This document shows positions 1,623-41,476 of a stretch of DNA of 41,476 nt, in pieces. Each line of letters begins with the position of its first letter. Within the stretch, counting starts at the first letter, position 1. This DNA is from a virus. The translations under genes and the position numbers were made by a program. The notes beneath the pieces were generated by a model. It had not been told where the DNA came from and did no database searches. It was given only the letters and a program-made list of their open reading frames with translations. Location: IMG/VR virus record IMGVR_UViG_3300006789_000003, positions 1-41,476 of that record. One strand, written 5' to 3'.

Positions 1623-1647
1623 CATTCACGAAACCCGCGTGTATAGT
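1619..1647 (+). promoter_or_regulatory. consensus sigma70 early promoter
   Basis: Perfect TTGACA (1619-1624), a 17-bp spacer, then TATAGT (1642-1647). The leader motif CATCAACG starts nine bases after the -10. It is nearly identical to the promoter at 2544-2572: the spacer shares CGAAACCCGCGTG and the GGG after the -10 is the same. Confidence 0.88.
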
Positions 1648-1683
1648 GGGTTTCAGCATCAACGAACGCAAGGAAACAGTGAC

Positions 1684-1905: not shown

Positions 1906-1909
1906 TGAC

Positions 1910-2328: not shown

Positions 2329-2330
2329 AC

Positions 2331-2537: not shown

Positions 2538-2543
2538 CGAAGC

Positions 2544-2572
2544 TTGACATTTGCGAAACCCGCGTGTATAGT
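2544..2572 (+). promoter_or_regulatory. consensus sigma70 early promoter
   Basis: Perfect TTGACA (2544-2549), 17-bp spacer, TATAGT (2567-2572). The downstream leader CATCAACG starts at 2582 and is followed by CACACAAGGA and the gene start at 2606. It is almost a copy of the promoter at 1619-1647. Confidence 0.88.
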
Positions 2573-2605
2573 GGGCTTTAACATCAACGCACACAAGGAA
2601 CTGAC

Positions 2606-2974
2606 ATGAGCTATATCAACGACATACCCTGCAGAATTGCAAACGGCCCTCAGCCGGATGACAACGACGTACCCGGCCCGGAGGACAACCCGGACAGGGA
2701 AGCGGCCCTCAAGAATAGCGGCGCTGCGATCCGGTACCTCGAGGAAGAGATGAAGCGAGATGAAGTACACGAGTGGCTGGCCGACCAGCTCTGGGAGCAG
2801 TACTCGCCGAGTGGTGCAAGCTACATGGACGACTTGGTTATGTACGCGCTGAACGGCGATCACGAAGCAGCTGGAAAGGTTATTCACGATGCGCTGCAAG
2901 ACACGGGAATCGCTGCAATTAATCACTACCGTGGCCGTTCCGGTCTTTACGCTTACGGGGACAAACAATCATGA
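2606..2974 (+). CDS. early acidic protein of unknown function, 122 aa
   Basis: Has its own strong promoter and leader immediately upstream. The N-terminal third is acidic and proline-rich (PQPDDNDVPGPEDNPDRE), and the rest is mainly helical, including EEEMKRDEVHEWLADQLW. No membrane segment or known motif. The next gene overlaps it by four bases, so translation of the two is probably coupled. Confidence 0.75.
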   Translation: MSYINDIPCRIANGPQPDDNDVPGPEDNPDREAALKNSGAAIRYLEEEMKRDEVHEWLADQLWEQYSPSGASYMDDLVMYALNGDHEAAGKVIHDALQDTGIAAINHYRGRSGLYAYGDKQS

Positions 2975-3345
2975 AAAAGCGGCGCAGTTTTAATGATTGG
3001 AACGTGACCCCGCCGGAAGCCGTCGACGCTAGCGCGATGAAGCTAACCCACCTCCGGCGGTTAGACATGCGGCGCAATCCGCACGCCGTGCGCGGTCGCG
3101 GTCCCGATAGTGATCTAAACGCGGCCGAAATACCAACGGCGGTAGATGGGCGGGCTGACGGCGCGTCGGTTTTGCCCCGTTTCGAGGACGCCGCGTGGCC
3201 CGATTACCAGAACGAACTATGCAAACGCGAGAACGATGCGCCCGAGAATCTAGCCAAGCCGGGGCGGTACTTTTGGGACGCCCGGCGGCGCTGCCTGATT
3301 GATTCGGCGGGCGACCCGATCGGATCCCGGAGTTTGCGAAAATGA
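2971..3345 (+). CDS. early basic protein of unknown function, 124 aa
   Basis: Begins with ATGA overlapping the preceding stop. Rich in R, D and P, with two arginine clusters (LRRLDMRRNPHAVRGRG near residues 28-44 and WDARRRC near the end). It could be a nucleic-acid-binding or partly disordered protein. It forms a tail-to-head overlap with the small membrane-protein gene that follows. No family recognised. Confidence 0.7.
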   Translation: MKKRRSFNDWNVTPPEAVDASAMKLTHLRRLDMRRNPHAVRGRGPDSDLNAAEIPTAVDGRADGASVLPRFEDAAWPDYQNELCKRENDAPENLAKPGRYFWDARRRCLIDSAGDPIGSRSLRK

Positions 3346-3512
3346 GCGCCGCGGCCGTTTTACTGGTGGCGGTGTTTGTGCTGCTCACGTGGCGGTTATG
3401 GATCCCGGCGGTTTGTTTTGTGCTCGTGTTTTCCTTTTGGGTCGCCGCTTTTGGTTTGATGTTTGGGGGGATCATTCTAGCTTTTGTAGTGATGGCGGGA
3501 GGCTGGACCTAG
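3342..3512 (+). CDS. small hydrophobic membrane protein, 56 aa
   Basis: A 56-codon ORF starting with ATGA over the stop of the previous gene. Nearly the whole chain is hydrophobic: segments VLLVAVFVLLTW near residues 6-17, VCFVLVFSFWVAAFGLMF near 24-41 and IILAFVVMA near 44-52, consistent with two or more membrane spans. It is the last gene before the promoter at 3588. It could be an early membrane effector such as superinfection exclusion; holin action is less likely from its early position. Confidence 0.65.
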   Translation: MSAAAVLLVAVFVLLTWRLWIPAVCFVLVFSFWVAAFGLMFGGIILAFVVMAGGWT

Positions 3513-3587
3513 GCGCAGTTATTGCAATTGCGCACGCTGAGTAAAAACTAAATTTCTCTAAATATCAAGGCGTTAGTATTTTTTAAC

Positions 3588-3616
3588 TTGACAGGGTGCA
3601 AAATTCGTTTTACTGT
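3588..3616 (+). promoter_or_regulatory. sigma70-type promoter of the replication operon
   Basis: Perfect TTGACA (3588-3593), 17-bp spacer, TACTGT (3611-3616), in a 241-bp gap between the early and replication genes. Unlike the other early promoters it lacks the CATCAACG leader. It is followed instead by a leader of about 130 bases with two hairpins. Confidence 0.75.
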
Positions 3617-3636
3617 TAAGACAGGGGGTTACGTTA

Positions 3637-3702
3637 GCTCGAAAGCTCGCCCAGAGCTTGAGAGCGACGATAACTAAAAGTCTTTACGTTACTATAAGTA
3701 AC
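3637..3702 (+). promoter_or_regulatory. structured 5' leader: GA-paired hairpin plus second stem-loop
   Basis: Bases 3637-3665 form a symmetrical hairpin: GCTC, then GA, then AAGCTC around a five-base loop, closed by GAGCTT, GA and GAGC. The two GA steps face each other as tandem G-A mismatches, a stable RNA motif. Bases 3688-3702 form a second stem (GTTAC-TATAA-GTAAC). Both lie about 15-80 bases after the predicted transcription start. They could protect the mRNA 5' end or be bound or cut by a protein. Confidence 0.5.
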
Positions 3703-3736
3703 TTAATTAGACGTACTAACTGCGAAGGACACTGAC

Positions 3737-3757
3737 ATGACAAGGAGTAGTACATGA
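3737..3757 (+). other. six-codon leader mini-ORF upstream of the 3754 gene
   Basis: ATG-ACA-AGG-AGT-AGT-ACA-TGA begins with the same GACATG context as the early genes. Its TGA overlaps the ATG at 3754. The AAGGAG that should serve the downstream gene lies inside it, so ribosomes translating the mini-ORF could affect initiation at 3754. Expression is not proven. Confidence 0.35.
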
Positions 3758-4290
3758 TCGGCGACAACCCCGAGGACGATCTACTAGCAGGCATAGGAGA
3801 GAGCCTAGACGACGCGCTCGACAAGGCACAATCTCCGTTAGCGGCGCTGGTGGCGTTGTATAATCACGCCCCGCATCCAGTCATTCGAGAATTCTTAGAT
3901 AGCCGGGCCAAGGAAATTGTGGAAACTGACCTTCCGAAAATATACCACATGCTCGAAGCCGGACCCGCTGCCGATAGGGAGGAGCTGGGGTCGCTTGCGG
4001 AAGTTTTCGAGGCGGCGATGACGAGCATAGCGGCCGAAGATCCGCAGGCCGTACCAAGCGCAACCGCGCAACAAATCGGCCGGGATTTGGCAGCGTTTAT
4101 TGATCAGAATCTCGGGCGCGTGCTTTTAGAGGAGACGCAATTTAACCGGAAGTGTTGGCACGATATTGTCTCCTCGCACGCTACATTGACCGCGGCGTTG
4201 GACGGTCTGGCGCTTACTGAGGACCAGAAGAAGTTGCTTGACGAGTGGGAAGAGGGCGCGGAGAGTTACGCTTCTGCGACGCTGCACTGA
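3754..4290 (+). CDS. acidic helical protein of unknown function, 178 aa
   Basis: First full gene of the replication operon, with AAGGAG about 7 bases before the ATG. It is strongly acidic, with few basic residues and long predicted helices throughout (for example SLAEVFEAAMTSIAAED near residues 79-95). No catalytic motif, coiled coil register or membrane segment stands out. Placed directly before primase and helicase, it could be a replication accessory protein, helicase loader or regulator, but nothing in the sequence settles this. Confidence 0.8.
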   Translation: MIGDNPEDDLLAGIGESLDDALDKAQSPLAALVALYNHAPHPVIREFLDSRAKEIVETDLPKIYHMLEAGPAADREELGSLAEVFEAAMTSIAAEDPQAVPSATAQQIGRDLAAFIDQNLGRVLLEETQFNRKCWHDIVSSHATLTAALDGLALTEDQKKLLDEWEEGAESYASATLH

Positions 4291-4299
4291 CTTTGACTG

Positions 4300-5142
4300 A
4301 TGTCTGGAAGCATCAAGACATTCGCGCAACTACCTGCACAGGTACGCGAGGCAATAGCGGCCGGGGAGGGTTACGCCTATTGCCCCAGCTGCGACGGGGG
4401 GAGCAGTCGCAGGAAAACGCTAGGTCTGATACGTGGTGAGGCTGGGGCCGTGATCTTGAAGTGCTTCCGCCTGACGTGCGGCTACCGTGGGACCACTCTC
4501 CCTGACGGTACGGCCGTGATACCAACGCCGCAAGAGAGGAAAGGCCGCTTCTACCGGGATGCCACGGTTCCAGTAGGCGGCGACGCACAGGCAGTAGTCG
4601 AGCTGGATTACTGCCTCGATCGACAGGCGTACGAACAGCACGGCTGGCGCATGAACGAGACAGGGCGGGAACTGGTCATGCCGGTACTCGATCCATACGG
4701 ACGGGTTAGGGGACACACGACCCGCACGCTGTTCGACAAGCGCAAACGGTGTTTTACTTACAACCAGATTCCCGGCGCGCCATTCCTAGACTGGTGGCTC
4801 GGCGGAACCCAGACCATTGTCGTGGTGGAGGGCCAGCTAGATGCGGCCCGGCTGTCCGGGTTGGGCTACAATGCAGTAGCCCTTCTCGGTACAGCCATTT
4901 CCCCTGATGATGCGATAGAAATTTCACAAACAGCTAGACAAGCGGGCGCAACGAGGCTAGTATTGGGCCTTGATAGAGACGCCTTTGCGAAGGCATTGAA
5001 GCTACGCCGCAAGTTAGCGCACATACTTCCGCTTTCGGACGTACTGTGCTTAGAGCGCGACTTCAAAGACACACACGACGACAATGAGATCCGAGGGATA
5101 TTGGATGGACAACAACAACTTACTGGCGGCGGTGCTAAGTGA
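4300..5142 (+). CDS. DNA primase, zinc-binding plus Toprim domains
   Basis: Makes RNA primers for replication. The N-terminal zinc-binding domain has cysteines C28-x2-C31 and C55-x4-C60, the arrangement seen in T7 gp4-type phage primases. The Toprim domain contains EGQLDA (E177, D181) and the metal-binding DRD (D225, D227) in GLDRDA. At 280 aa it is primase only: the helicase that T7 fuses to this module is encoded by the next gene, which starts 38 bases before this one ends. Confidence 0.92.
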   Translation: MSGSIKTFAQLPAQVREAIAAGEGYAYCPSCDGGSSRRKTLGLIRGEAGAVILKCFRLTCGYRGTTLPDGTAVIPTPQERKGRFYRDATVPVGGDAQAVVELDYCLDRQAYEQHGWRMNETGRELVMPVLDPYGRVRGHTTRTLFDKRKRCFTYNQIPGAPFLDWWLGGTQTIVVVEGQLDAARLSGLGYNAVALLGTAISPDDAIEISQTARQAGATRLVLGLDRDAFAKALKLRRKLAHILPLSDVLCLERDFKDTHDDNEIRGILDGQQQLTGGGAK

Positions 5143-6304
5143 CAGACGCACACACGACGCGCTCGTACAGCTTGGTTTTGCTGGATTGGAATTTGAGGAT
5201 GCCGCACGCGTGGTCTTCGACTGCGCTGGTGAACAATATCAGCGCGACGAATTGCTGGCGGCGGTGGATCGCAATCTATTGCGCCATCAGGTCGAGAGGC
5301 GGTACGGCGTGGGTAGCATGGCAGACAGCGTGCTTAGCTTCGCGGCGGATCTCCCGGTTATTGCCAGCGTTGCAAATGTGGCGGAAGAATATAGACTCCT
5401 TCGTTTGCGACGTACCGCCACTGAACTCGCAACTCGTCTTGCGTCTGGAGATCATTCGGACGAGACACGAGAAGCCCTCGAACATTACAAGACTCTTATT
5501 TCGGGCGCGGCAGCTGAGGAAGTTAAGGATCGATTAGAGTTTGACGATTTCACAGAAGAGGCCGGTGAGCGGATTAAGCTGTACCCTTCAAGTATTAACA
5601 AGGTGATTTCCGGCGGCGTACACCGGGGCAATAACCTAACGGTGTTTGGCCGGCCGAATAGTGGGAAAAGTATGTTTGCGCTCAACAACGCAGCCTGTCT
5701 TATCATGAACGGGTACAAGGTACTGTACGTAGCCAACGAGGAGCCGGCATTTGATCTTACCCGGCGCTTGCTGTCTCGAATTGTTAAGACCGACATTGGG
5801 CATTTGGAGGACCGGGATAGGTTGAAGGAAGCGTTTGATCGAGCCGGCGAAGCATACAAGCGGAATTGGCATCTCATGCACAAGGCTGGCTGTACGTACC
5901 ACGACATTAGGCGCGCATGCGCCAGAGTGAAGCCGGATATTATCATTGTTGACCAGTTAAAAAATGTTCACATCAAAGAGGACAACCGCGCATTGCAGCT
6001 TGACAAATTAGCTAGACAAGTCAGGGAATTGGGCATAGAATTTGCAGCAGTTACGATATCAGTCACGCAGGCGGGAGAGTCGGCCGAAGGAAAGTTGGTA
6101 TTAGGCATGTCGGACGTTGAGTGGTCTAACACCGGCATCCCCGGAGCGGCTGACCTGATGATAGGGCTGGGCGTGAACGACGATTTCGACGCGCAAGATA
6201 AGCGCATGATTTCGATTCCGAAGAACAAGCTTAAAAATTGGCACGGGGCATTTCCCGTTTGGATTAAACCTGAATTAACACTGATATCAGGCCAAGCATT
6301 ATAA
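5105..6304 (+). CDS. DnaB-like replicative DNA helicase
   Basis: RecA-fold helicase of the DnaB/T7 gp4 C-terminal type, 399 aa from ATG 5105 (an in-frame ATG 7 codons upstream lies deeper in primase). Residues 1-150 form a helical N-terminal domain. Walker A is GRPNSGKS (182-189) and Walker B IIIVDQ with D283. YVANEEP carries the catalytic-glutamate region. No DnaC-like loader is seen in the window. Overlap with primase suggests coupled translation and a physical primase-helicase pair. Confidence 0.92.
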   Translation: MDNNNLLAAVLSDRRTHDALVQLGFAGLEFEDAARVVFDCAGEQYQRDELLAAVDRNLLRHQVERRYGVGSMADSVLSFAADLPVIASVANVAEEYRLLRLRRTATELATRLASGDHSDETREALEHYKTLISGAAAEEVKDRLEFDDFTEEAGERIKLYPSSINKVISGGVHRGNNLTVFGRPNSGKSMFALNNAACLIMNGYKVLYVANEEPAFDLTRRLLSRIVKTDIGHLEDRDRLKEAFDRAGEAYKRNWHLMHKAGCTYHDIRRACARVKPDIIIVDQLKNVHIKEDNRALQLDKLARQVRELGIEFAAVTISVTQAGESAEGKLVLGMSDVEWSNTGIPGAADLMIGLGVNDDFDAQDKRMISIPKNKLKNWHGAFPVWIKPELTLISGQAL

Positions 6305-6329
6305 ACCCAGAAACAAAGAAGGACGAAAC

Positions 6330-6434
6330 ATGAAAAATTTATGGGAAGAACTTAAAGACACGTGGCGCGCTTATCCGGGCGTCGTAATAGCTTTAATCAT
6401 ATTGGGCGCGCTCATCGTTGCCGTTATTGGATAG
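6330..6434 (+). CDS. tiny single-span membrane protein, 34 aa
   Basis: ORF with a clear ribosome-binding site (GAAGGACGAAACATG). Residues 1-14 are charged and amphipathic (MKNLWEELKDTWRA), and residues 17-33 form one hydrophobic span (VVIALIILGALIVAVIG). Topology suggests a cytoplasmic N-terminus. It is one of several very small membrane proteins among the replication genes. Function unknown. Confidence 0.6.
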   Translation: MKNLWEELKDTWRAYPGVVIALIILGALIVAVIG

Positions 6435-6443
6435 GGGGCAGCA

Positions 6444-6674
6444 GTGGTTACAATTGACCTAACAGGGCCGGAAGGCGACGTTTATAATTTAGCCGGCGTT
6501 GCTAATATGTGGAATCATTTGCTCCGAAACCATCGGCCCAACCTATTGGACGCGGCAAAAGATCGTTTTCCTTATGTGAAATACAACGACGTGCTGGATT
6601 TGTTTGACGAATGGTTTCAATCTTCGCAAGAATACCGTTTTCTTAACGATCCTAGAGTACCGGTACGGGTATGA
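6444..6674 (+). CDS. small conserved phage protein, 76 aa
   Basis: GTG start preceded by GGGGGCAGCA. The opening VTIDLTGPEGDVYNL resembles the (K/V)TINLTGPDGNAYxL start of a small protein found in many phage replication modules; this resemblance is from memory. The C-terminus (FDEWFQSSQEY) is aromatic and acidic. Function unknown. It overlaps the following membrane-protein gene by ATGA. Confidence 0.75.
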   Translation: MVTIDLTGPEGDVYNLAGVANMWNHLLRNHRPNLLDAAKDRFPYVKYNDVLDLFDEWFQSSQEYRFLNDPRVPVRV

Positions 6675-6796
6675 TGGGGACAACGGCACTAGTGATAACG
6701 GCCGAGCTGTTGGCGCAGGTGTTACTAGCCTTGTCAATGGTGACGCTTTTGGCGTTCGTGTTGTTATTGTTTTTGAGCGATGACGATGAGCGGTAA
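6671..6796 (+). CDS. tiny single-span membrane protein, 41 aa
   Basis: Starts with ATGA overlapping the previous stop. Residues 6-35 are hydrophobic (leucine, valine and threonine rich) and are followed by an acidic tail SDDDER. It overlaps the next ORF by 11 bases in another frame. The tight overlaps on both sides favour a real gene. Function unknown. Confidence 0.6.
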   Translation: MMGTTALVITAELLAQVLLALSMVTLLAFVLLLFLSDDDER

Positions 6797-6950
6797 AGGC
6801 AGTCGCCGCCGTGCTCCGGCGGTGACTGAGAAGGAAATCGACAAGAACTGGACCCGTATTTTTAATAAAAGGAACGCACATGCAACTGACAAAACAAGAC
6901 GTAGCTCCGGCCAAACTGGTCGATCCCGCGAACCTGCCGCCACTCAATGA
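6786..6950 (+). CDS. small basic phage protein, 54 aa
   Basis: ATG at 6786 lies within the tail of the preceding gene. The N-terminal half (SGKGSRRRAPAVTEKEIDKNWTRIFNK) resembles a common tiny phage protein that ends in a W/Y-x-x-IFGKK motif. In that family the protein usually stops soon after this motif. Here the frame continues for about 25 residues over the start of the next gene (6880), so the tail may be non-functional. Confidence 0.55.
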   Translation: MSGKGSRRRAPAVTEKEIDKNWTRIFNKRNAHATDKTRRSSGQTGRSREPAATQ

Positions 6951-7185
6951 GGTGCAAATAATGCTTGAGCATGCGTTTGTGCAAGGGTCGCAAACTTGGG
7001 GCGTGAAGCGCGAGATCGGTATTATACTGGTACTGGCTCAAGAACTTCTGGAAGCTCTAGACATAGCCCAAGCAGCGGACGCTAATCAACGGATGTTAAA
7101 AGGAGCACAGCTGGAAACCGGGCGGCTGCGGAAGCAAGTATCGACGCTACGAGCCGAACTTGACAGAAAAAAAGAGGCGTGTTAA
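6880..7185 (+). CDS. protein of unknown function with C-terminal coiled coil, 101 aa
   Basis: ATG at 6880 behind AAAAGGAACGCAC. The first 40 residues include LPPLNEVQIMLEHAFVQGSQTWG. From about residue 45 to the end the chain is helical, with a heptad-like leucine/alanine pattern (KGAQLETGRLRKQVSTLRAEL near residues 74-94). It could be an adaptor or oligomerising protein for the polymerase encoded just downstream. No family recognised. Confidence 0.7.
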   Translation: MQLTKQDVAPAKLVDPANLPPLNEVQIMLEHAFVQGSQTWGVKREIGIILVLAQELLEALDIAQAADANQRMLKGAQLETGRLRKQVSTLRAELDRKKEAC

Positions 7186-7207
7186 AGTTTTATTAAGGGT
7201 TAAACCT

Positions 7208-9106
7208 ATGATATTCTTCGACTTAGAGACTACCAACACACGCAAGGGGACGGCCCTAGAGCCGACCAATCGCGTTGTTATGGTGTCTTGGTGCGTCAAG
7301 GGCGGGCCCGTCAAGAATTTTACAGGCCCCATTATGGAAGCCGCGGAGTTCTGGCGCGACTTGCAGGACTCCCCGGCAGCGTGCTGCTATAATGCGAAGT
7401 TTGAGATGCACTGGCTGAAACGGTTGGGTTTCGATATCGACCGCATCCGGTGGCACGATCCCATGCTCGGCGAGAAGGTACTGTTGGGTAACGAGCCCCT
7501 ACCCATGTCGATGGACAAGGTGTCCGATCGTTACGGGTTCGACACGAAGGACAAGATGATAGATGCGCTGATGACGGGGGGTGTCTGCCCTTCGGAGATG
7601 CCACAGAGACGGTTGCGCGCTCGTTGCAACCGAGACGTGCGCGTTCTGCGCAGTTTACACGTCGAGGTCATTAGACGGCTGAAGCAGCGCGAGCAGATCC
7701 ACCTTTACCGCAACCGCTGCGACTTTGCGGTTATCCTGACTCACATAGAGGCCGAGGGGATGCAGCTAGACGTTGAGCGGGTAGAGGAGCACTACGCCAA
7801 GTACGCCGCCGAGGTTGCAGATTTGACGCGGCGGCTTGACGAGATTACGGGCGGTATCAATATGAATAGCCCGGATCAGAAGGCGCATTTCCTCTACGGG
7901 GAGCTGGGGTTTCCGGAGCAGATGCGTGGCAAGCACCCGATGCGGAACAAGCCGTCGAAGCAGTTCCCAGACGGCAGACCCAAGACGGATGCCGCTACTA
8001 TTCAGTGGCTCACGGGGCAGGCCACGACTGATCGGCAGCGTGAGTTTGTCGAATTGCAACAACGGTACAGCAAAGCTAACGCGGCGCTGTCTAAGAATTT
8101 GGAGTTTTTTCGAGGGGTATGTCTGGAGCGTGGGGGGAAGTTTCATGCGCAGTTCAACCAGACGGTAGCGGCTACGCATAGACTAACAAGTTCCGGCATG
8201 CCCCTTGTTTTCGACGCGTACGGCGGAAAGTCGAAGTCGGTGCAGTTCCAGAATATGCCCCGAGAGTTTAAAAGTTGTTTTAAGGCACCGTCTGACGATT
8301 ATTATATTGTAGAGGTCGATGCGATGCAGCTGGAGTTCCGGGTGGCGGCGTTCGTCGGTGATGATGAGCAGGCGCGCGCTGATATCGAGGATAAGGACTT
8401 CGACGCGCATTGCAAGTCGGCGTCGGTCATGCACGGCGTGGACTACCAGACATTCCTGACGGAGTTCAGGAAGGGCAGCAAGGAACGCAAGGTACAGCGA
8501 CAGGGAGCAAAGGCAGACACGTTCAAGCCGCTATACGGCGGTACGAAGGGGACGCCAGAGCAAGAGCTATATTACAAGGCGTTCGCTGCGCGGTATTCCG
8601 GGTTGATACGCCAGCAGGAAACATGGCTGGCTGAAGTCGCCATTGCAAACGAGTTTCGCACGCCGTGGGGCATGACGTTTAGGTTCGACACATATACGAA
8701 CCGACGCGGCGTATTAATGAATAAGAAAACGGGCAAGCCGGTAGGCCCGCAGGTTTACAACTATCCGGTACAGAACCTTGCGACGGCAGAGATCGTGCCG
8801 ATCGGCATATGCTCACTATATCGCCGCTGTAAGGAGAAGAAGTTAGACGTTAGGTTTTGCAATACGATTCATGATAGTATAATATGCTACGTGAACAAGG
8901 CGCACATCAATCTATTTAATCAGGAAGCAGCGAAAGCTTTCACGAGTGATGTGTACGATCATTTAGAGAAACATTACGATACTGAGTTTAACGTCCCGCT
9001 TGGTGTCGAGTCTGTCTACGGGCATCACTGGAATCAAGGGGACGAGTTTATTTATGATGGAGTGAGTAACAATGAAGCGCAAAGGTACAGTCAGCAAAGT
9101 CGGTAA
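7208..9106 (+). CDS. family-A DNA polymerase with 3'-5' exonuclease
   Basis: Replicative polymerase of the T7 gp5 / Pol I type, 632 aa from ATG 7208; an upstream in-frame TTG would add 16 residues. Exonuclease motif I is DLETT near residue 5 and Exo II is NAKFEMHW. Polymerase motif A is D371-AMQLE376-FR. Motif B runs from K435 to F439 and Y443. Motif C is HDS (D556) instead of the usual HDE. F439 aligns with E. coli F762. It overlaps the downstream SSB candidate by 35 bases. Confidence 0.95.
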   Translation: MIFFDLETTNTRKGTALEPTNRVVMVSWCVKGGPVKNFTGPIMEAAEFWRDLQDSPAACCYNAKFEMHWLKRLGFDIDRIRWHDPMLGEKVLLGNEPLPMSMDKVSDRYGFDTKDKMIDALMTGGVCPSEMPQRRLRARCNRDVRVLRSLHVEVIRRLKQREQIHLYRNRCDFAVILTHIEAEGMQLDVERVEEHYAKYAAEVADLTRRLDEITGGINMNSPDQKAHFLYGELGFPEQMRGKHPMRNKPSKQFPDGRPKTDAATIQWLTGQATTDRQREFVELQQRYSKANAALSKNLEFFRGVCLERGGKFHAQFNQTVAATHRLTSSGMPLVFDAYGGKSKSVQFQNMPREFKSCFKAPSDDYYIVEVDAMQLEFRVAAFVGDDEQARADIEDKDFDAHCKSASVMHGVDYQTFLTEFRKGSKERKVQRQGAKADTFKPLYGGTKGTPEQELYYKAFAARYSGLIRQQETWLAEVAIANEFRTPWGMTFRFDTYTNRRGVLMNKKTGKPVGPQVYNYPVQNLATAEIVPIGICSLYRRCKEKKLDVRFCNTIHDSIICYVNKAHINLFNQEAAKAFTSDVYDHLEKHYDTEFNVPLGVESVYGHHWNQGDEFIYDGVSNNEAQRYSQQSR

Positions 9107-9656
9107 GAGCAAATTTTCCTTTTTTGTTATGCTTGACGGCGAGGCGTTCTATTTTAATACTAAGTTTGAACCGAAGTGTGGCGTAGGCGATGTCGTCGGC
9201 ATCGAGTTTGATAAGAAGGCCGACAACCGGGGCCAGATCCAGAAGATCGTTGTCTTAGAGGACAGTGGCAGCCCGAAGGGTGTACAGGAATCTGCAGGCT
9301 TTGGCGGGGGCAGTCAATCTAGCGCCAGCGGCGGCAGTAACTACACGCCGAACACCGACCGACAGGATAGCATCGTCTACCAGTCTTCGCGTAAGGACGC
9401 TCTGGTACTAGCTGAAATCCTCGTGTCTAACGAGGCTATCAAATTGCCGAAGGATGCAGACAAGAGGCGTATGGTGATTGAAGAGCTAGTTAATGAGACG
9501 ACGTTCACGTATTTTAAGGCGGCAAGTGACCCACAAGCCGCCCTGAAGGGCGAGGAGGCTGTCGCAGCGGACGCAGCAGACGAGCCACAAGATAACGTGG
9601 TTAGTTTAGACACCGCAGTCGGCGATGACAGTTGGGACGACGACAGCTGGGAATAA
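9072..9656 (+). CDS. probable single-stranded DNA-binding protein
   Basis: 194 aa. The N-terminal 60 residues are beta-rich and basic, suggestive of an OB fold (KGTVSKVGKSKFSFFVMLDG). A Gly/Ser linker covers about residues 74-95, then comes a helical section. The C-terminus is very acidic with aromatic residues (GDDSWDDDSWE), the hallmark tail of SSB proteins such as T7 gp2.5 that recruits polymerase and helicase. SSB function is inferred from this architecture and the position next to polymerase. Confidence 0.65.
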   Translation: MKRKGTVSKVGKSKFSFFVMLDGEAFYFNTKFEPKCGVGDVVGIEFDKKADNRGQIQKIVVLEDSGSPKGVQESAGFGGGSQSSASGGSNYTPNTDRQDSIVYQSSRKDALVLAEILVSNEAIKLPKDADKRRMVIEELVNETTFTYFKAASDPQAALKGEEAVAADAADEPQDNVVSLDTAVGDDSWDDDSWE

Positions 9657-9714
9657 CTGAGTGCCCTAGTGTGTGTGGACAGGGACGTCCTCCGCACTTT
9701 AACTGGAGAACGAA

Positions 9715-9834
9715 ATGGTAGATATGTCAACAACAGACACAGTAATAGCAGTCGGCTACTGGGTAGGACTGGCGGCAGGTCTAGGATTGATAGGCACGCT
9801 GCTCGGTATTGTGCTCGGCAAGATACGGGTCTAA
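9715..9834 (+). CDS. tiny single-span membrane protein, 39 aa
   Basis: Behind AACTGGAGAACGAA. Residues 10-36 form a glycine-rich hydrophobic span (GYWVGLAAGLGLIGTLLGIVLG) followed by a short basic end (KIRV), giving an N-out/C-in prediction. Function unknown. It sits between the SSB and exonuclease genes. Confidence 0.6.
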   Translation: MVDMSTTDTVIAVGYWVGLAAGLGLIGTLLGIVLGKIRV

Positions 9835-9868
9835 AACTGAAATTTCCCAAAGTTGGCGGAACAAAACT

Positions 9869-10759
9869 ATGAAAGTACGCGCTTTAATTGACGGAGACTG
9901 GATATTATACGCCGCCGGTTTTGCGGGGCAGAAAACGAAGTACGTTTTGCCCGCGTTGTTTGGAGAGCAGGAGTTCGACAACAAAACCGAGTTGCGGGAA
10001 GTGGCCGAGCAAGAGGACCGTGATTGGCAGGAACTCCCGGTTTATTCGCGCGTCGTGCTCGATCCCGAATCGCACTTCTTTCACAGTGCGAAAAAAATGA
10101 TCGAGACGCAATTGCAAAAGATCGGCGAGAAATTTGGAACCGACAACGTGCCCTATACGGTGCTGATAGACGGGGACGGAAACTTTCGTAACCGCATCGC
10201 AACCTTGCGTGGTTATAAAGCAAACAGGGCGCCAAATTCAAAGCCCATGATGTACGGAGCGATCCGACAGTATCTGATTGATAACTGGGACGCCGAAGTA
10301 ATACACGATCAGGAAACTGACGACGAAATGTGCATTCGGGCAACAGCCTTACAAAACAACGGGGTCACTTCGGTGCTGGTCGGAGTAGACAAGGATTACA
10401 AACAACAGCCGGGCTGGTGGTTGAACCCAAACAAGGGTTTTATGCGCATCGGCGAGCAGCAAGGAGCGTGGTACTTGCACATTCAATGTTTAACCGGGGA
10501 CAGCTCCGACAACATCGGCGGGGCGTATAAGATCGGCCCCAAAATAGCGCAAGAATTAGTGCCGAAACGCGGCACGCCGGAGCAGATGTGGGACGCAGTA
10601 GTAGGAGGCTTCCAGCTAAGCATGACTAAGTACCCGGAAAAGTACCCGGCGGACATGACGCCGGAAACCGCGGCGTTAGAGAACATGAGGCTTGTTTATT
10701 TACGGCGGGAGTATAACGAGATGTGGGCACCACCGGGGACCGACGATGGGCGGACGTAG
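9869..10759 (+). CDS. 5'-3' exonuclease (FEN / Pol I 5' nuclease family)
   Basis: 296 aa, comparable to T7 gp6. The start at 9869 places the first metal-binding motif ALIDGDW (D8, D10) at the N-terminus as in this family; a 20-residue in-frame extension upstream lacks homology. Further landmarks are RGYKANR, the acidic QETDDEM, VGVDKDYKQ and the helix-hairpin-helix LTGDSSDNIGG...GPKIAQ. It likely removes primers and degrades host DNA for nucleotides. The next gene starts 14 bases before its end. Confidence 0.92.
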   Translation: MKVRALIDGDWILYAAGFAGQKTKYVLPALFGEQEFDNKTELREVAEQEDRDWQELPVYSRVVLDPESHFFHSAKKMIETQLQKIGEKFGTDNVPYTVLIDGDGNFRNRIATLRGYKANRAPNSKPMMYGAIRQYLIDNWDAEVIHDQETDDEMCIRATALQNNGVTSVLVGVDKDYKQQPGWWLNPNKGFMRIGEQQGAWYLHIQCLTGDSSDNIGGAYKIGPKIAQELVPKRGTPEQMWDAVVGGFQLSMTKYPEKYPADMTPETAALENMRLVYLRREYNEMWAPPGTDDGRT

Positions 10760-11147
10760 TAGCAGAATCAAGGGGGCGACCGGAGAGCGTGAGTTTTTCA
10801 AGCTATCCAACGCGGCCGTAGAGGACGTAGACTGGCCGTATCGTCACCGGGACGGGGACATATTTAAGCGTCATCCGGCACCACGGCACGGTAAAGGTCA
10901 GCCGGATAACACTGATCCGATGGGCGTATTACCAGTCACTATAGAAGTGAAACGCGTTGAAAAGCCACAGTTTAAGACGTGGATCGACAAGCTACAAGAG
11001 CAAAGCAGACCGACACAGACCCCCGTATTAGCGTGGCGTAAGAATGGTGAGGACTGGACCGTGATGCCCTTGCTGGACATGAACGAATGGCAATCCTATT
11101 TGCGCTGGCGTTTAAAGCGAGTGAATGAGGGGCACGATGAGGCATAG
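10746..11147 (+). CDS. PD-(D/E)XK nuclease, Holliday-junction-resolvase-like
   Basis: 133 aa, starting MGGRSSRIKGATGEREF, typical of phage resolvases in which a basic N-terminus precedes the GxxxER helix. The active-site strand is VTIEVKRVE (E-x-K), followed by FKTWIDKLQEQ and VLAWRKNGEDWTVM, the usual end of this family. It would cut branched replication intermediates before packaging. Start at 10746 is preferred over an upstream ATG at 10692 inside the exonuclease gene. Confidence 0.8.
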   Translation: MGGRSSRIKGATGEREFFKLSNAAVEDVDWPYRHRDGDIFKRHPAPRHGKGQPDNTDPMGVLPVTIEVKRVEKPQFKTWIDKLQEQSRPTQTPVLAWRKNGEDWTVMPLLDMNEWQSYLRWRLKRVNEGHDEA

Positions 11148-11664
11148 CAATTCAGCAGCAAGAAAGGGGACGCCGATATTTACGGGCGTAATGAAATACT
11201 TTCCCGACGCGTTAGCGGAAATCGCGCGCGCCTCGCAGGTGGGGAACGACCAACACCATCCTAACACGCCGCTACATTGGGATCGTGCTAAGTCTACCGA
11301 CGAGTACGACTCCTGTGCGCGGCACTTATTAGACCGGGCGGCCGGAGATGTATTCGATGAGGACGGCACGCGCCACATGGCAAAGGTTGCATGGCGAGCA
11401 TTGGCTGCGTTGCAAAAAGAACTCGAAGAAGAACGTGACGAGGAAACGGCGGAAGAATTGCCGATCGGTGGGACGAAGATTATTCACCCGCTACCTCCGC
11501 CGCGGGAAAACGAGACTGATTACGACCGCATACAGCGTCGATCGGCCGAACGGGAGGCAGAACTGTTACTTCAGGATCGTCTGCGCGCAGCTGGCGACGG
11601 CTCAGTCGCGGCGCAGGACTTTATCAACGAGTATGAAGCAGAGATTGCGAGGCTCCGAAGATGA
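11137..11664 (+). CDS. dATP/dGTP diphosphohydrolase-like protein (PF18909/DUF5664 type)
   Basis: 175 aa from ATG 11137, with AGGGG just upstream (an in-frame ATG 12 bases earlier is possible). The core RKGTPIFTGVMKYFP...ALAEIA...GNDQHHP...LHWDRAKSTDE...DEDGTRHMAKVAWRALA is the signature of the phage family annotated as dATP/dGTP diphosphohydrolase. That family is thought to adjust dNTP pools. A charged C-terminal extension (about 85 residues) is of unknown role. No PurZ gene is present, so 2-aminoadenine DNA is not indicated. Confidence 0.78.
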   Translation: MRHSNSAARKGTPIFTGVMKYFPDALAEIARASQVGNDQHHPNTPLHWDRAKSTDEYDSCARHLLDRAAGDVFDEDGTRHMAKVAWRALAALQKELEEERDEETAEELPIGGTKIIHPLPPPRENETDYDRIQRRSAEREAELLLQDRLRAAGDGSVAAQDFINEYEAEIARLRR

Positions 11665-12395
11665 ATATATTGACTTTTGATATTGAAACAGCGCCAGCCG
11701 AAGCATACGCTTGGCAGATGTGGAAGACTAACATTGCTCCGACTCAAATTATCGCGCCGGGTTACACTTTGTCTTGGGCGGCAAAGTGGCTGGGAGAACC
11801 AGCTAAAAAGACGGTTTACCGCAGCGTGTGGGATAAAGGGGATTTCATCAGCGAGCTGCACGACCTGCTTAACGAAGCTGACGCCGTGGTCGGGTATAAT
11901 TCGGACAAGTTTGATTTGCGCCACATGAACCGGGAATTTACGCAGATTGGACTCGGCCCAGTACGTCCGCTAGCTTCTATCGACTTGTACAAGATAGTGA
12001 AGCGCAACTTTAATTTCCCGTATTACCGGCTAGATTACGTGTCGCAGAAATTACTCGGGGCGAAGAAGCTGGACACGGGCGGGTTCGACTTGTGGCCTGC
12101 GTTCATGAAGAAAGACCCGAAAGCACTAAAGAAAATGCAGCAGTATAACATTAAGGATGTATTATTGACGGAAAAGTTATACACGTACTTGCTGCCGTGG
12201 GTCAAGAATCATCCTTTCGTCGGTGATGGTGATATCATCATCCCTGACAGTGACGTGACGTACGAGTGCCCGGCTTGTGGATCTACCGACACGCAAAAAG
12301 AGCGCCCACGTCGCACACGCTGTTTTGGCATTCGCGTAGTACGATGTGGTAACTGTGGGTCGTGGTCTGAAGGGCAAAGGAAAAAGTTGTCATGA
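11661..12395 (+). CDS. DnaQ-like 3'-5' exonuclease with C-terminal zinc ribbon
   Basis: 244 aa, overlapping the previous gene by ATGA. Exonuclease motif I is LTFDIETAP (residues 4-12), motif II GYNSDKFD, and motif III YNIKDVLLTEKLY, as in RNase-H-like DEDD exonucleases. After residue 200 a zinc ribbon has CPACGS and CGNCGS pairs. Because the polymerase carries its own exonuclease domain, this second one may act in recombination, RNA processing or defence evasion. Substrate unknown. Confidence 0.82.
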   Translation: MNILTFDIETAPAEAYAWQMWKTNIAPTQIIAPGYTLSWAAKWLGEPAKKTVYRSVWDKGDFISELHDLLNEADAVVGYNSDKFDLRHMNREFTQIGLGPVRPLASIDLYKIVKRNFNFPYYRLDYVSQKLLGAKKLDTGGFDLWPAFMKKDPKALKKMQQYNIKDVLLTEKLYTYLLPWVKNHPFVGDGDIIIPDSDVTYECPACGSTDTQKERPRRTRCFGIRVVRCGNCGSWSEGQRKKLS

Positions 12396-13219
12396 AAGTT
12401 TTAGGACTTCAGAGGGATTCTCCAAAGTCAGCAGCTAACCGCGCCACTAGCTCGCTAATAGACCGGCTGAACGGATCCTATCAGCGACGGGCACTGCCTG
12501 TACACCCGGACGAACCGGACCTCGTGGTGCAATGGGGATTCAAGCCGGACCCCGGATTATTGTCAGCGATTTCCGCTGGTATTCCGTACCTTATAATAGA
12601 CCTTGGGTACATAGACAATGGAAGGGCGGCGAAGTTCTCTATATCCTTCAACGGTTTTCACGGTACAGCGTGGAGCGATCCAAAAGTGTTAGACCGAGAG
12701 CCGCGTCCGATGCCGGGCTATTCTGATTGGCGATCGGGGGAAGGGGACAAAGTTGTAGTGGTTGGACAAATGCCTAACGACCAGTCTTTACGTGGGCAGG
12801 ATATAAACGCGTGGATGGGGAGGGCAGCAAGCGCAGCAAGGGACGCATTCGGAAAACCAGTCATAAAACGGCCCCACCCAAAAATGTTAAACCCGTGGGA
12901 ACCAGCCAATGATCCTTGGAGCACGGCTTTAGAGGAAGCGTACGCTGTTGTAACGTGGACGTCTACTGCTGCTATTGGCAGCGTGTTGGCAGGGGTGCCC
13001 ACTATTGCTATGCACCCCGGCAACATGGCGTACAAGGTGGCGGCGCACGATATGATATTGCGCACACCGCCCGGCAGAAGCGAATGGCTACACGAGTTGG
13101 CGTGGCGGGAGTGGGATTTTTCGTCTTCGGCTGACTTAGATCGTTTGGCCGATTACATAATAGAAGTTTACCCCCGTTTGCGGGACACCCCGCTAGATAG
13201 CCCTCGGAATGTATTGTGA
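12392..13219 (+). CDS. putative GT-B-like glycosyltransferase
   Basis: 275 aa, coupled to the exonuclease gene by ATGA. The C-terminal half has VVTWTSTAAIGSVLAGVPTI followed by MHPGNMAY and HELAWREW. A T/S-rich loop followed by an AGVP(T/V)I strand is typical of the donor-binding side of GT-B folds, including capsule- and surface-polymer-type transferases, and of a recurrent phage protein of this kind. Substrate (phage DNA, surface glycan or nucleotide sugar) cannot be read from the sequence. Confidence 0.55.
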   Translation: MKVLGLQRDSPKSAANRATSSLIDRLNGSYQRRALPVHPDEPDLVVQWGFKPDPGLLSAISAGIPYLIIDLGYIDNGRAAKFSISFNGFHGTAWSDPKVLDREPRPMPGYSDWRSGEGDKVVVVGQMPNDQSLRGQDINAWMGRAASAARDAFGKPVIKRPHPKMLNPWEPANDPWSTALEEAYAVVTWTSTAAIGSVLAGVPTIAMHPGNMAYKVAAHDMILRTPPGRSEWLHELAWREWDFSSSADLDRLADYIIEVYPRLRDTPLDSPRNVL

Positions 13220-13701: not shown

Positions 13702-13987
13702 CAGCATGCACAAATTTTTTAAAATTGTAGCCGCGATATTATTGACGGCGTACGCATTAACGGCCCTCGCCGCCCCCGGCACGTCTAGCTGGAACGCCAT
13801 GTTAAAAGACCGCCTGAAAAACCCGCAAAACTATTGGGGCGGGCCAGAAATGCGGCCATCGATTGAGGAATTGTCGGACGGCCCTTCCCGCTCTAAGCAC
13901 ATCGCTCTTAGAGGAGGTAAGACTAACGCAGAAATCGCCGCCGATCTACGAATCGTTGTGCTTTGGTTACGGCAGCCGGAGCTATGA
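13694..13987 (+). CDS. secreted or periplasmic protein with signal peptide, 97 aa
   Basis: Starts at 13694, overlapping the metallopeptidase gene by eight bases; a second ATG four codons later is possible. Residues 5-28 form a classical signal peptide: basic HKFFK, hydrophobic IVAAILLTAYALTALA, and a probable cleavage near ALAA/PG. The mature part is small and charged, with no known domain. Export of an early/middle phage protein suggests action in the host envelope, such as superinfection exclusion. This is inference. Confidence 0.7.
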   Translation: MINSMHKFFKIVAAILLTAYALTALAAPGTSSWNAMLKDRLKNPQNYWGGPEMRPSIEELSDGPSRSKHIALRGGKTNAEIAADLRIVVLWLRQPEL

Positions 13988-14514
13988 GTAACTGGACAGC
14001 ACGCAAGGCGGCGCTGCAGCCGGACGAAATAACGCATAGGCTTGCGTTTAATCCCAACTATCCGGGCATCCCTACGGGGGTTCCCGGCGCTATTGGTATT
14101 AAGATACGCGACAAGATAAAGCCGGAGACGCGTGAGCGCATCCGGCAGAGCATCGACAGGCAGGGTATTAGAAATCCTATTACAGCGTACCGCACTAGCG
14201 AAGGGTTGTTTCTAGGCTTCGGTGGGGGGCGTCTACAGGCAGCTAAGGCGCTGCAAATATTAGTCCCGGCTATCGTCATCGACTACACAGGGGAGATGGT
14301 GGATTACGAGGAAGTAACGCCCGACAATTGGGAGGAGTTTTACACGGATGTGCCCATGTACTTTGAGTTCAACGATACTGGCATCTACACCCATTATGGC
14401 CTCGAACGTAACCGTGACGAGCCGGTTGATATACGAGGACTTGCGTGGGCGCGTGAAGAAGATATGCAAGCAATTTTAAAAGAATCACCGTGGCTAGGAG
14501 AAAAGAGTGAGTAG
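13984..14514 (+). CDS. ParB N-terminal-domain-like protein
   Basis: 176 aa, overlapping the preceding gene by ATGA. Residues about 42-92 fit the ParB/Srx-like nuclease fold: RIRQSIDRQGIRNPITAYR, then GLFLGFGGGRLQAAKAL with the GGxRLxAA signature and IVIDY. It lacks an obvious helix-turn-helix after the domain and has no ParA partner nearby, so plasmid partition is unlikely. It may be a nucleotide-binding or DNA-nicking accessory protein. Confidence 0.7.
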   Translation: MSNWTARKAALQPDEITHRLAFNPNYPGIPTGVPGAIGIKIRDKIKPETRERIRQSIDRQGIRNPITAYRTSEGLFLGFGGGRLQAAKALQILVPAIVIDYTGEMVDYEEVTPDNWEEFYTDVPMYFEFNDTGIYTHYGLERNRDEPVDIRGLAWAREEDMQAILKESPWLGEKSE

Positions 14515-32544: not shown

Positions 32545-33897
32545 TCAATACCCTGCTCGTGCATCTTGCGGCTGAAACTTAGTTGCCGCCTCAACACTGG
32601 AAATGTCAAAGTTAGTAAGCGTCTCGGGAACTAGCTGGTCTATGTACGCCAAGGCGTCTATCAAATCGTCGTGAACGTATTTAGAAGGAAACGAAACGGC
32701 TTGATCAATTAACTCGGCGTTCCACGCCCCCTTAAGTAAGCTCAAAGAACCCTTTTGTGCCCGGCCCTGCAGTGCCCACTGGACCCGATCGTACTTTTTC
32801 TGATTGCCGTGTGTTAGGGGTTTAATTTCAAACCAGCGGTTATACTGCGCCATGTACTCCCGCATGTACGGCTCCACCGCGTTCATTAGCGCGCCACGCT
32901 CGATACCGATAATGGGTATCTGGTGATCCTTGGCGGCCTTGACAATGCGGAAGGCAGTCTCCCTGACTCCCCACTGGCCGTGCTGGATGTCGACAACATA
33001 CCAATGCCCGTGCAGATTGACCTTCACAATCGCTATAGCCGTACTATCTAACTTCCGCTTCTCGTTTTTGCGATCGGGGTCGGAAGCAAAGCCTGCTAGA
33101 TCGACTGCTAAGAAGGTATCGTACGTGGCGTCCGGTATCATGTTGACTATGTTAAAGTCGTCTTGATTGAAAATTTGCCCGCTAGACGCGACGAATTTGG
33201 CAGCAATTTCCTGCTCGTACAGATCCTCCGAGCCGTTCGTATACTCGCGGATCATGCCCTTTAATTCGTCGGGGTCTATGAGAGAATTATCCTCAGAGGA
33301 GTAGTTAAACACAGCCCACGGACTTTCGTCGCCTACGTCCTCGATATCTGCAAGCGCACGCTCGATAAGCTCGTAGAAGTGATTACGACCTTTCGGAGTA
33401 CCGATAAATAGGGCCGACCCCTTAACATCTATGAGTGCAGGGCGGATAATCTCCGGCCACACTCGGGGCGGCATATCAGCGTACTCGTCGAGTACGGCGT
33501 AGCGAAGTTTCATGCCCCGAGCAGCGTCAGGATCGTCCATACCCAATAGTCGGATACGACAACCGCCAAGCTCCTGCGGCAGCTCGATCATAGACGTCTT
33601 TTCAAGAATGCGGAGTTTTAGCCCCGTCGCTTCCTCAATCTCGTAGGAAAACTGCAAGAAATACGGCCACGCATTACGACGGGCCTGCTCGCGGTCGATG
33701 CCCACATAAATGACTTCCGAAGAAGAGTTAAGCTCTACTCCGGCTGCATTAACTTGGGCAAGCGCCTCCTCGAAGCAGCGTATAACGGAAAACACAGTTT
33801 TTCCAAACCGTCGTCCTGCTGCCACGATTTTAAAACGGGCAGGATGCTTATGGATTTCCGTCTGCGCCGGGTGCAGATTAAACTGAACTGTTGCCAC
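32545..33897 (-). CDS. terminase large subunit, 450 aa
   Basis: ATPase-nuclease that packages DNA. Walker A AAGRRFGKT (residues 26-34), Walker B AVLDEYAD with D137/E138, and FIGTPKG as the coupling motif. The nuclease domain begins at FLAVDLAG (D266). GTG start with GGAGGG eight bases upstream. The small subunit candidate lies 400 bases upstream, separated by two tiny genes. Confidence 0.95.
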   Translation of the reverse strand: MATVQFNLHPAQTEIHKHPARFKIVAAGRRFGKTVFSVIRCFEEALAQVNAAGVELNSSSEVIYVGIDREQARRNAWPYFLQFSYEIEEATGLKLRILEKTSMIELPQELGGCRIRLLGMDDPDAARGMKLRYAVLDEYADMPPRVWPEIIRPALIDVKGSALFIGTPKGRNHFYELIERALADIEDVGDESPWAVFNYSSEDNSLIDPDELKGMIREYTNGSEDLYEQEIAAKFVASSGQIFNQDDFNIVNMIPDATYDTFLAVDLAGFASDPDRKNEKRKLDSTAIAIVKVNLHGHWYVVDIQHGQWGVRETAFRIVKAAKDHQIPIIGIERGALMNAVEPYMREYMAQYNRWFEIKPLTHGNQKKYDRVQWALQGRAQKGSLSLLKGAWNAELIDQAVSFPSKYVHDDLIDALAYIDQLVPETLTNFDISSVEAATKFQPQDARAGY

Positions 33898-34297: not shown

Positions 34298-34714
34298 TTA
34301 TTCCTCTATAACCTCTGCCGTAGAGTCCACTATAGCTTGGACGGGGACTGTGGCATTGGGATTGGTCTGGATGATAATTTGTAATCGTTTGTCTGTCTTC
34401 TCTGCTTCTTCTGCCTCTTTAATAGGCATAGCAGGCATAACTCTGTCTAACAGGAGCTTCATCGCTGACAGGGAGTCTTTATCTTCCCCCTCCAACGCGA
34501 TCCCGAGAACGCGATCGATGCCCGAAAGCAGTTTTTCGGCTTGCGCCGGATTTGCGACATAATCGCGGAGTGCTGCTTCGAGCATCAAACGCTCGTGGGT
34601 GATGTAATTCTTCAGCCCTTTAGCTTTCCCTGCGGGATTGCCAGATTGCCCCGGAACAAATCGCCCCTTCTCGTCGCGTTGGACTAGCGACTTCCCCCCG
34701 TTAAACTCGGTCAT
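34298..34714 (-). CDS. probable terminase small subunit (DUF5681-type)
   Basis: 138 aa. The N-terminal RDEKGRFVPGQSGNPAGKAKG is the DUF5681 signature often found at the start of phage small-terminase-like proteins. A helical middle follows, then a beta/acidic C-terminus (LQIIIQTNPNATVPVQAI). Position upstream of the large terminase supports DNA recognition for packaging. Confidence 0.75.
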   Translation of the reverse strand: MTEFNGGKSLVQRDEKGRFVPGQSGNPAGKAKGLKNYITHERLMLEAALRDYVANPAQAEKLLSGIDRVLGIALEGEDKDSLSAMKLLLDRVMPAMPIKEAEEAEKTDKRLQIIIQTNPNATVPVQAIVDSTAEVIEE

Positions 34715-40146: not shown

Positions 40147-40348
40147 CGACGCTGCCCCCCGCGCGTAGCGCCAATTCCGCCTCAAGATGCTTAGTTACAG
40201 CCAGATTAGCCTTTTGCATCTCGGCCATTTCTTCCGCAACCACTAATTGTCGCTCTGCAACCTTAGTTTGCGCTCTGAGGGCCTTAGCTTGCTGAAATAA
40301 TGCGTCTGCAATGCGATTAAGCGCGTCTGCAATCTGCCCGTCCGCCAT
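40133..40348 (-). CDS. helical protein of unknown function, 71 aa
   Basis: Mostly helix with heptad-like repeats (LNRIADALFQQAKALRAQ and VAERQLVVAEEMAEMQ), suggesting a coiled coil. Starts where the previous gene ends (one-base overlap). Its 3' end overlaps the zinc-ribbon gene. Function unknown. Confidence 0.65.
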   Translation of the reverse strand: MADGQIADALNRIADALFQQAKALRAQTKVAERQLVVAEEMAEMQKANLAVTKHLEAELALRAGGSVGGSS

Positions 40349-40569
40349 TATTCTGTCAATTTGCGGTGGACCGCATCAAATACCAGTGCGACAGCGCCGA
40401 ATCCATATAAAGGCCGAAGCTCGTTTGCCGTAAACTCAAACGAATCGGTAGTTATTTTCTGTTTTCGCTCAAGCTGCTCCAGTCGGTCAGTTAATGACTG
40501 CACTCGTTCTTCAAGAGCTTTAACAGTAATAGCTCCGGCCGGCTTTTTAGCCTGTGGTTCGTCTGACAT
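40348..40569 (-). CDS. first late-operon gene: coiled-coil protein, 73 aa
   Basis: Preceded by GGAGGGAAACC. A clear leucine-heptad coiled coil (VKALEERVQSLTDRLEQLER near residues 16-35) and a short hydrophobic C-terminal segment (LYGFGAVALVFDAV). Some phage lysis or spanin-like proteins have this arrangement, but no signal peptide is present. It is the gene nearest the late promoters. Function unknown. Confidence 0.7.
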   Translation of the reverse strand: MSDEPQAKKPAGAITVKALEERVQSLTDRLEQLERKQKITTDSFEFTANELRPLYGFGAVALVFDAVHRKLTE

Positions 40570-40720
40570 TCGGTTTCCCTCCGTAAAAATTTTGTCTTTT
40601 TTGCCTGCGTCTGAATTGACTAAGCACTCAACGCAGAATGAAAAAGCTAAATCAATTAAATCTTAATTAAGTCTAACTAAAGCAGGCTTACGCTATCTGC
40701 TTTACTTAGCACTCAGTTAC

Positions 40721-40749
40721 ACGGTAACACATGTTTTTAGTCTTGTCAA
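40721..40749 (-). promoter_or_regulatory. sigma70-type promoter of the late operon
   Basis: Minus strand: TTGACA at 40749-40744, 17-bp spacer, TACCGT at 40726-40721. It faces the first late gene (start 40569) with a leader of about 145 bases. The -10 has the TAnnnT form of the replication-operon promoter. Confidence 0.72.
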
Positions 40750-40769
40750 GGCCCTTAAATACCAACCCT

Positions 40770-40798
40770 TTGATAATTCGATCAATTTATTTTGTCAA
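40770..40798 (-). promoter_or_regulatory. second minus-strand promoter next to the LexA box
   Basis: Minus strand: TTGACA at 40798-40793, 17-bp spacer, TATCAA at 40775-40770 (4/6 match). Its -35 begins only eight bases from the LexA box, so a bound LexA dimer would lie against RNA polymerase. Confidence 0.6.
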
Positions 40799-40806
40799 AA
40801 CCACGG

Positions 40807-40828
40807 CTACTGTATGAATATACAGTAG
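40807..40828. promoter_or_regulatory. LexA/SOS-type operator (perfect 9-bp inverted repeat)
   Basis: CTACTGTAT-GAAT-ATACAGTAG. The core CTGTATGAATATACAG fits the gamma/betaproteobacterial LexA consensus CTGT-N8-ACAG, and the 20-bp form differs from the E. coli consensus at only two central positions. Arms are perfect over nine bases. It lies next to a late-operon promoter. LexA family logic is established; repression here is inferred. Confidence 0.8.
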
Positions 40829-40878
40829 TTATGCGCAAGAATCGTTCCTAATAAGCAGAAGGCTTGTCCTGTAGCTGA

Positions 40879-40901: not shown

Positions 40902-40998
40902 ACGCGCTAACGGGGGGGCTTACGAACTCGAAACGCCCAAAATTGGGTGTGTCCGGTATCTGTCTCTAGTCCTCGCCCCCCTTGGGGGGGTACCCCGG

Positions 40999-41097
40999 TT
41001 GTCCACAAGTTATCCACAGCTTGTTAACAGCTTGCTAACAAGTTAGCCACAGGCTATGCACAGCTTGTGCACACGCCTGTTAGTATCCTGTGGATAA
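40999..41097. other. putative oriC-like replication origin: array of DnaA-box 9-mers
   Basis: Seven 9-mers in the same direction start at 40999, 41010, 41021, 41032, 41043, 41054 and 41065, exactly 11 bp apart with 2-bp gaps: TTGTCCACA, TTATCCACA, TTGTTAACA, TTGCTAACA, TTAGCCACA, CTATGCACA, TTGTGCACA. The second is the perfect DnaA box. An inverted perfect box (TGTGGATAA) is at 41089-41097. Same-direction sites 2 bp apart mirror the DnaA-ATP filament arrays of E. coli oriC. An AT-rich flank lies to the left. Confidence 0.8.
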
Positions 41098-41408: not shown

Positions 41409-41437
41409 TTGACATCCTGTGCGCCGCCATAGATAAT
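41409..41437 (+). promoter_or_regulatory. sigma70 promoter of the first early gene
   Basis: Perfect TTGACA (41409-41414), 17-bp spacer, GATAAT (41432-41437). The leader CATCAACG begins at 41446 and is followed by ACACACAAGGAACAACGACATG, whose last three bases are the start codon of the first gene once the contig is closed. Confidence 0.85.
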
Positions 41438-41454
41438 GTGTCCAACATCAACGT

Positions 41455-41476
41455 ACACACAAGGAACAACGACATG
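41455..41476. repeat. 22-bp terminal direct repeat (contig closure), right copy
   Basis: Identical to bases 1-22. Together with the promoter at 41409 it places the start of the genome map inside a normal leader, which indicates assembly of a circular or permuted molecule. Confidence 0.75.

Follow-up and report, generated by a model that had tools for sequence, protein, structure and literature searches.

Lytic phages equipped with a DNA polymerase and a helicase of their own are commonly assumed to initiate replication without the host initiator. The genome of an uncultured lytic tailed phage, analysed here as a single stretch of 41,476 nt (the window), raises the question of why such a phage carries a long, evenly spaced series of DnaA-box-like sequences, and whether this series might act as an oriC-like origin that makes use of host DnaA.

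Sequence, register and surroundings of the box array

Direct reading of the region 40999-41097 confirmed the existence of seven DnaA-box-like 9-mers spaced at 11 bp and of one perfect box in inverted orientation, as had been claimed in a sequence-only reading of this DNA. All seven boxes of the run (40999-41073) are on the plus strand, with start-to-start distances of exactly 11 bp. The perfect consensus TTATNCACA is present in only two of the eight boxes (box 2 and the inverted box), and the remaining six deviate from it at one to three positions. The individual boxes are as follows:

40999..41007, plus strand: box 1, TTGTCCACA, read directly
41010..41018, plus strand: box 2, TTATCCACA, perfect consensus
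41021..41029, plus strand: box 3, TTGTTAACA, two mismatches to TTATNCACA
41032..41040, plus strand: box 4, TTGCTAACA, three mismatches to TTATNCACA
41043..41051, plus strand: box 5, TTAGCCACA, read directly
41054..41062, plus strand: box 6, CTATGCACA, read directly
41065..41073, plus strand: box 7, TTGTGCACA, read directly
41089..41097, minus strand: inverted box, TTATCCACA, perfect consensus

Taken singly, boxes show no enrichment across the window (62 one-mismatch matches vs 54 expected), and what makes the array improbable is its register. The longest chain of YTRNNMACA matches in the window had seven members at period 11 and one member at the other periods from 9 to 23, with the exception of the harmonic at 22. 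When 300 dinucleotide shuffles were scanned at periods 10-12, the longest chain consisted of one box (289 shuffles) or two boxes (11 shuffles) and never exceeded two, and the number of 7-chains expected by chance is ~1e-18; on these grounds, a chance origin of the array was rejected. An identical array is carried by a second contig (L025).

The array occupies the noncoding gap that separates a leftward arm of late genes, whose first gene lies at 40348-40569 on the minus strand, from a rightward arm of early genes, whose first gene begins at position 20 on the plus strand across the circular join. This arrangement agrees with the proposed location of the site at the divergence point of the two arms. 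The ends of the window record have a 22-bp repeat in common, and the record is therefore circular as assembled. The AT-rich neighbour that had been described is present, but it stops ~140 bp short of the array, and the centre of the least stable 200 bp lies ~265 bp from box 1. The following elements surround the boxes:

40590..40860, no strand: AT-rich stretch, candidate unwinding element, containing the least stable 200 bp of the genome (centre 40734)
40936..40947, no strand: CCCAAAATTGGG inverted repeat, with CTCAAAATTGAG at the corresponding place in the relative L361
40976..40998, no strand: C6-TT-G7 palindrome plus GTACCCCGG, immediately 5′ of the array, with a similar GC palindrome in L361
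41409..41437, plus strand: sigma-70-type promoter TTGACA-17-GATAAT facing the early arm, a consensus match only

Box 7 is followed on its 3′ side by CGCC and then by CTG TTA GTA, a series too short to count as the DnaA-trio that, together with a GC-rich spacer, has been described beyond the box on the unwinding side (PMC8235120). Three similar host-type promoters (TTGACA, 17 bp, TATAGT or GATAAT) occur in the window at 41409-41476, ~1618-1690 and ~2543-2610, each leading into a near-identical leader with CATCAACG and ACAAGGAA and then a GACATG start. Comparison with the DNA of named phages revealed no similarity to the array region or to the 20000-41476 half of the window.

The proposed likeness to oriC in spacing was supported by comparison with Escherichia coli, where clusters of four low-affinity sites are likewise separated by 2-bp gaps. 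The E. coli origin shares with the window the one-direction 9-bp sites, the strong boxes that anchor the weak ones and the AT-rich DNA close by (PMC6070618). On the other hand, the window array belongs to a phage genome, forms a single run of seven sites, lies at the indicated distance from its unwinding stretch and has no dnaA gene.

Recurrence of phased arrays in viruses and bacteria

Among 2.9 million viral contigs, 48 stretches with at least five YTRNNMACA boxes at 11 bp were found, corresponding to 31 independent arrays. All these period-11 arrays are intergenic and no long open frame spans any of them, whereas many matches of a period-12 control scan are coding; a coding repeat was thus rejected as explanation. 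Simple tandem duplication was also rejected, since the boxes are non-identical in 22 of the 31 arrays, although the uniform arrays L008, L021 and L031 may be simple repeats. At position 4 of the boxes, which the pattern leaves open, 80% of the cases have T, and position 5 varies (C 54, A 21, T 19 and G 7%); this composition is that of the DnaA consensus TTATNCACA.

A second viral scan, in which the members of a triplet of consensus boxes could be separated by 0-14 bp, revealed start-to-start distances of 11 (104 pairs), 12 (45) and 13 bp (4), none at 9, 10 or 14-16 bp, and further peaks at 21-22 and ~33 bp. These values correspond to one, two and three turns of the helix, a pattern that proteins oligomerising along one face of the DNA should produce. 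Judged from the sequences, the combination of consensus and phasing is the signature expected of cooperative DnaA binding rather than of chance. It has to be noted that about ten of the 34 matches in the period-12 control were real DnaA-box arrays, the majority being coding repeats, so that 12 bp is a second allowed spacing and this control is not a clean null.

Regarding the flanks of the arrays, C-runs were found within 150 bp on the 5′ side of 11 of 85 independent arrays (background of 1.1% per 150 bp), and in the window the C-run directly adjoins box 1. No consistent AT-rich side was found across arrays, the AT excess of the flanks being small (~5% on the 5′ side). Arrays are closer to the GC-skew minimum than expected by chance: the distance, as a fraction of the half-genome, averaged 0.22 over 15 large viral records with arrays (KS vs uniform, p = 4e-4; p = 0.006 for the six circular records alone) and was 0.07 in the window; the skew does not constitute independent evidence, since diverging gene arms also produce a skew minimum.

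A search of named-phage DNA with six tandem boxes as query identified cultured matches in Berlinvirus P483, the Molineuxvirinae Kp7 and KPN7, the Vibrio phages BD1 and BD5, Arthrobacter phages and T5-like phages. The earlier remark that no phage initiator gene was found was supported, as regards DnaA, by the absence of the DnaA C-terminal domain from the 33 array-bearing records searched. In the literature covered, to which subscription journals do not belong, no description of such arrays in the role of phage origins was found, apart from DnaA boxes predicted in individual genomes and the injection stop region of T5.

Only 18 contigs (L329-L346) from bacterial and archaeal genomes, 257 billion bases in total, matched a stricter pattern (five TTRTNMACA at 11 bp), in comparison with 25 of the viral stretches. 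The array was immediately beside dnaA in five of the 14 bacterial genomes in which this gene was placed, namely three Binatota, one Deltaproteobacterium and one Blautia, that is, three lineages. These dnaA-adjacent arrays resemble that of the window in comprising five or more near-consensus boxes spaced at 11 bp, and differ from it in being chromosomal and in having stronger boxes. One further match to the pattern is a small plasmid. Several of the 18 contigs belong to organisms with reduced genomes (TM6/Dependentiae, Holosporales), and in these no array was detected next to dnaA. Plasmid and phage P1 origins that contain DnaA boxes borrow host DnaA and pair it with a Rep protein of their own; no such Rep protein was recognised in the window.

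Turnover of the array and the replication genes

The genes of the window that bear on its relationships and on its replication are the following:

4300..5142, plus strand: DNA primase (Toprim)
5084..6304, plus strand: DnaB_C-type helicase, matching DnaB_C only
7160..9106, plus strand: family A DNA polymerase, closest among named relatives to StenR_269 and Zobellviridae (VpV262) (35-37%)
32545..33897, minus strand: terminase large subunit; arrays in relatives lie ~1.2 kb upstream of this gene
34298..34714, minus strand: DUF5681 protein beside the terminase, probably the small terminase

A 5′-3′ exonuclease and a ribonucleotide reductase are further encoded. The early arm also contains a ParB-like protein (13963-14514, weak PHROG match), and VpV262 has a ParB-like gene as well.

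Distant relatives of the window's terminase and portal proteins (32-40% identity) occur among the array-bearing contigs. Within the terminase family, for which 80 loci were kept from a profile search, at least three perfect boxes within 200 bp were present in 13 loci vs none in local shuffles. These clusters are mostly located 1.19-1.31 kb upstream of the terminase gene, in the space between the gene arms, with the same orientation relative to it as in the window. Most relatives are without a cluster, many complete-sized ones have no array anywhere, and some show other repeats in the region of the array. In L283, four GCTACATTAG units at 15 bp lie beside a G-run (8190-8264), where related phages have DnaA boxes.

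The closest covered relative is L361, with identities to the window of 61% (polymerase), 56% (helicase) and 49% (first late gene). Its inter-arm region follows the layout of the window, with a CAAAATTG inverted repeat and then a GC palindrome, but the position of the array is taken by unrelated sequence without a box cluster, indicating that the array was gained or lost without a change in replisome type. The Zobellviridae phages VpV262 and Vibrio phage 1.209.O also lack a DnaA box cluster; VpV262 is like the window in its primase, helicase and polymerase homologues and in its two divergent arms. The replisome type of the window therefore does not require the array.

Two further observations were made on L361. 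Its inter-arm region contains tRNA-Met and tRNA-Gly genes (608-801), and the window has no tRNA genes. The motif GTCTAAC/GTTAGAC occurs 35 times in its 12.8 kb (1-12763), scattered over both strands, with ~1.6 occurrences expected by base counts; there are 16 in the 41 kb of the window vs ~5 expected.

The sequence-only reading had also argued from the lack of a phage initiator or helicase loader, and had suggested that the phage recruits its own DnaB-like helicase through DnaA. The former argument fails: no IstB/DnaC-type loader was found above the cut-off in either array-bearing or array-less records, and since array-less relatives with a PolA-type polymerase are likewise without a detectable loader of this type, its lack does not single out the phages with arrays. 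In these records, the presence of the array did not visibly follow that of loader or polymerase genes. The recruitment of the helicase is doubtful, as the window protein matches DnaB_C only and no DnaB N-terminal domain was detected in it. In G020, an array-bearing relative, primase and helicase are fused and show a weak T7-type N-terminal match.

Possible functions of the array

On the basis of consensus and phasing, binding of host DnaA at the window array is very likely. The explanation that we favour, with a probability of roughly 0.45, is that the array is an exchangeable host-DnaA-binding element that helps to start replication, probably by opening an origin. DnaA-ATP would nucleate on the strong boxes, namely box 2 (41010) and the inverted box at 41089, and spread across the weaker ones between them along a single face of the helix. 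The resulting filament could help to open the AT-rich DNA toward 40600-40860, and the opened DNA would then admit the replication proteins of the phage (primase, helicase and family A polymerase), with copying proceeding outward along the two arms. The array would behave as an exchangeable module with a fixed place between early and late arms, a place where relatives have DnaA boxes, other repeats or neither. The graded series of strong and weak boxes resembles, by analogy, that of an origin, and an oriC-like origin in the window phage is plausible.

The location of arrays in other phages suggests an alternative that we consider unlikely, in which the array lies in or beside a terminal repeat and the bound DnaA acts in DNA entry, end pairing, concatemer handling or packaging instead of in replication start. 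Klebsiella phage Kp7 (ON148527) contains seven phased boxes (63-222 and 45822-45981) within its 238-bp terminal repeat, with spacings of 11, 22, 20, 22, 21 and 55 bp; like those of the window, they have the same direction and are separated by approximately whole helix turns, but they belong to a T7-like phage with its own RNA polymerase. This T7-type enzyme (PF00940) was detected in P483, Kp7 and KPN7 and, by the same search, is absent from the window. The known origin type of these three phages thus needs no DnaA, and an array need not be an origin. In Arthrobacter phage Seahorse, the array is no more than 100 bp from the record end. In VpV262, the terminal repeats sit between the two corresponding arms, and in G021, a phage unrelated to that of the window, the array is found at the skew minimum and directly adjoins the gene of the small terminase, a position that equally speaks for the favoured role in replication start. 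The injection stop region of T5 has been described as containing DnaA boxes (PMC13250531), and it resembles the window in being a noncoding region close to the genome end, although the role proposed for it is in two-step DNA entry and the box spacing of T5-like phages is irregular. Weighing against a function at genome ends, contig ends show no excess of arrays (6 of 47 lie within 300 bp of one vs 4 expected), and DnaA phasing is not needed by any known end function.

The same data from T7-like phages and T5 would also fit a DnaA sink, to which we attach a similarly low likelihood. Hundreds of boxes on replicated phage genomes would sequester host DnaA or promote DnaA-ATP hydrolysis, in the manner of datA, and so halt host initiation. 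Such a role would account for the patchy distribution of the arrays and for their presence in phages with other origins, and some viral arrays do consist of pure strong-box repeats; on the contrary, the window boxes are mostly weak and only eight per genome, and a sink has no need for a place between the arms beside AT-rich DNA. The divergent arms around the array and the good sigma-70-type promoter ~310 bp downstream bring to mind a control of transcription, with DnaA timing early and late expression to the growth state of the host. This we regard as improbable, given that no promoter prediction overlaps the array and that promoters regulated by DnaA do not usually have long phased arrays. 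Finally, the other short repeats at the corresponding place in relatives such as L283 might indicate that the boxes are sites of a phage protein and only look like DnaA boxes; this reading is very improbable, because the DnaA-box consensus and its degenerate position are matched in many unrelated viruses, and no shared phage binding protein was found.

Beyond the favoured role of the window array in replication start, several unrelated tailed-phage lineages might share an exchangeable initiator-capture site between their arms, made of phased host-DnaA boxes or, in close relatives, of iteron-like repeats, so that a swap of the array would change the initiator under the same polymerase and packaging genes. 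This generalisation is speculative, and we consider it somewhat unlikely. The recurrence and turnover of the arrays among phages is a wider and more surprising result than the claim of a single origin. The presence of phased arrays in many phages, including cultured phages of Klebsiella, Escherichia and Vibrio, makes the supposed independence from the host initiator directly testable. Since many unrelated phages carry arrays, often where their arms meet, phages may tap DnaA more widely than has been recognised; if so, phage replication would be tied to the level of host DnaA-ATP and hence to the growth state of the host.
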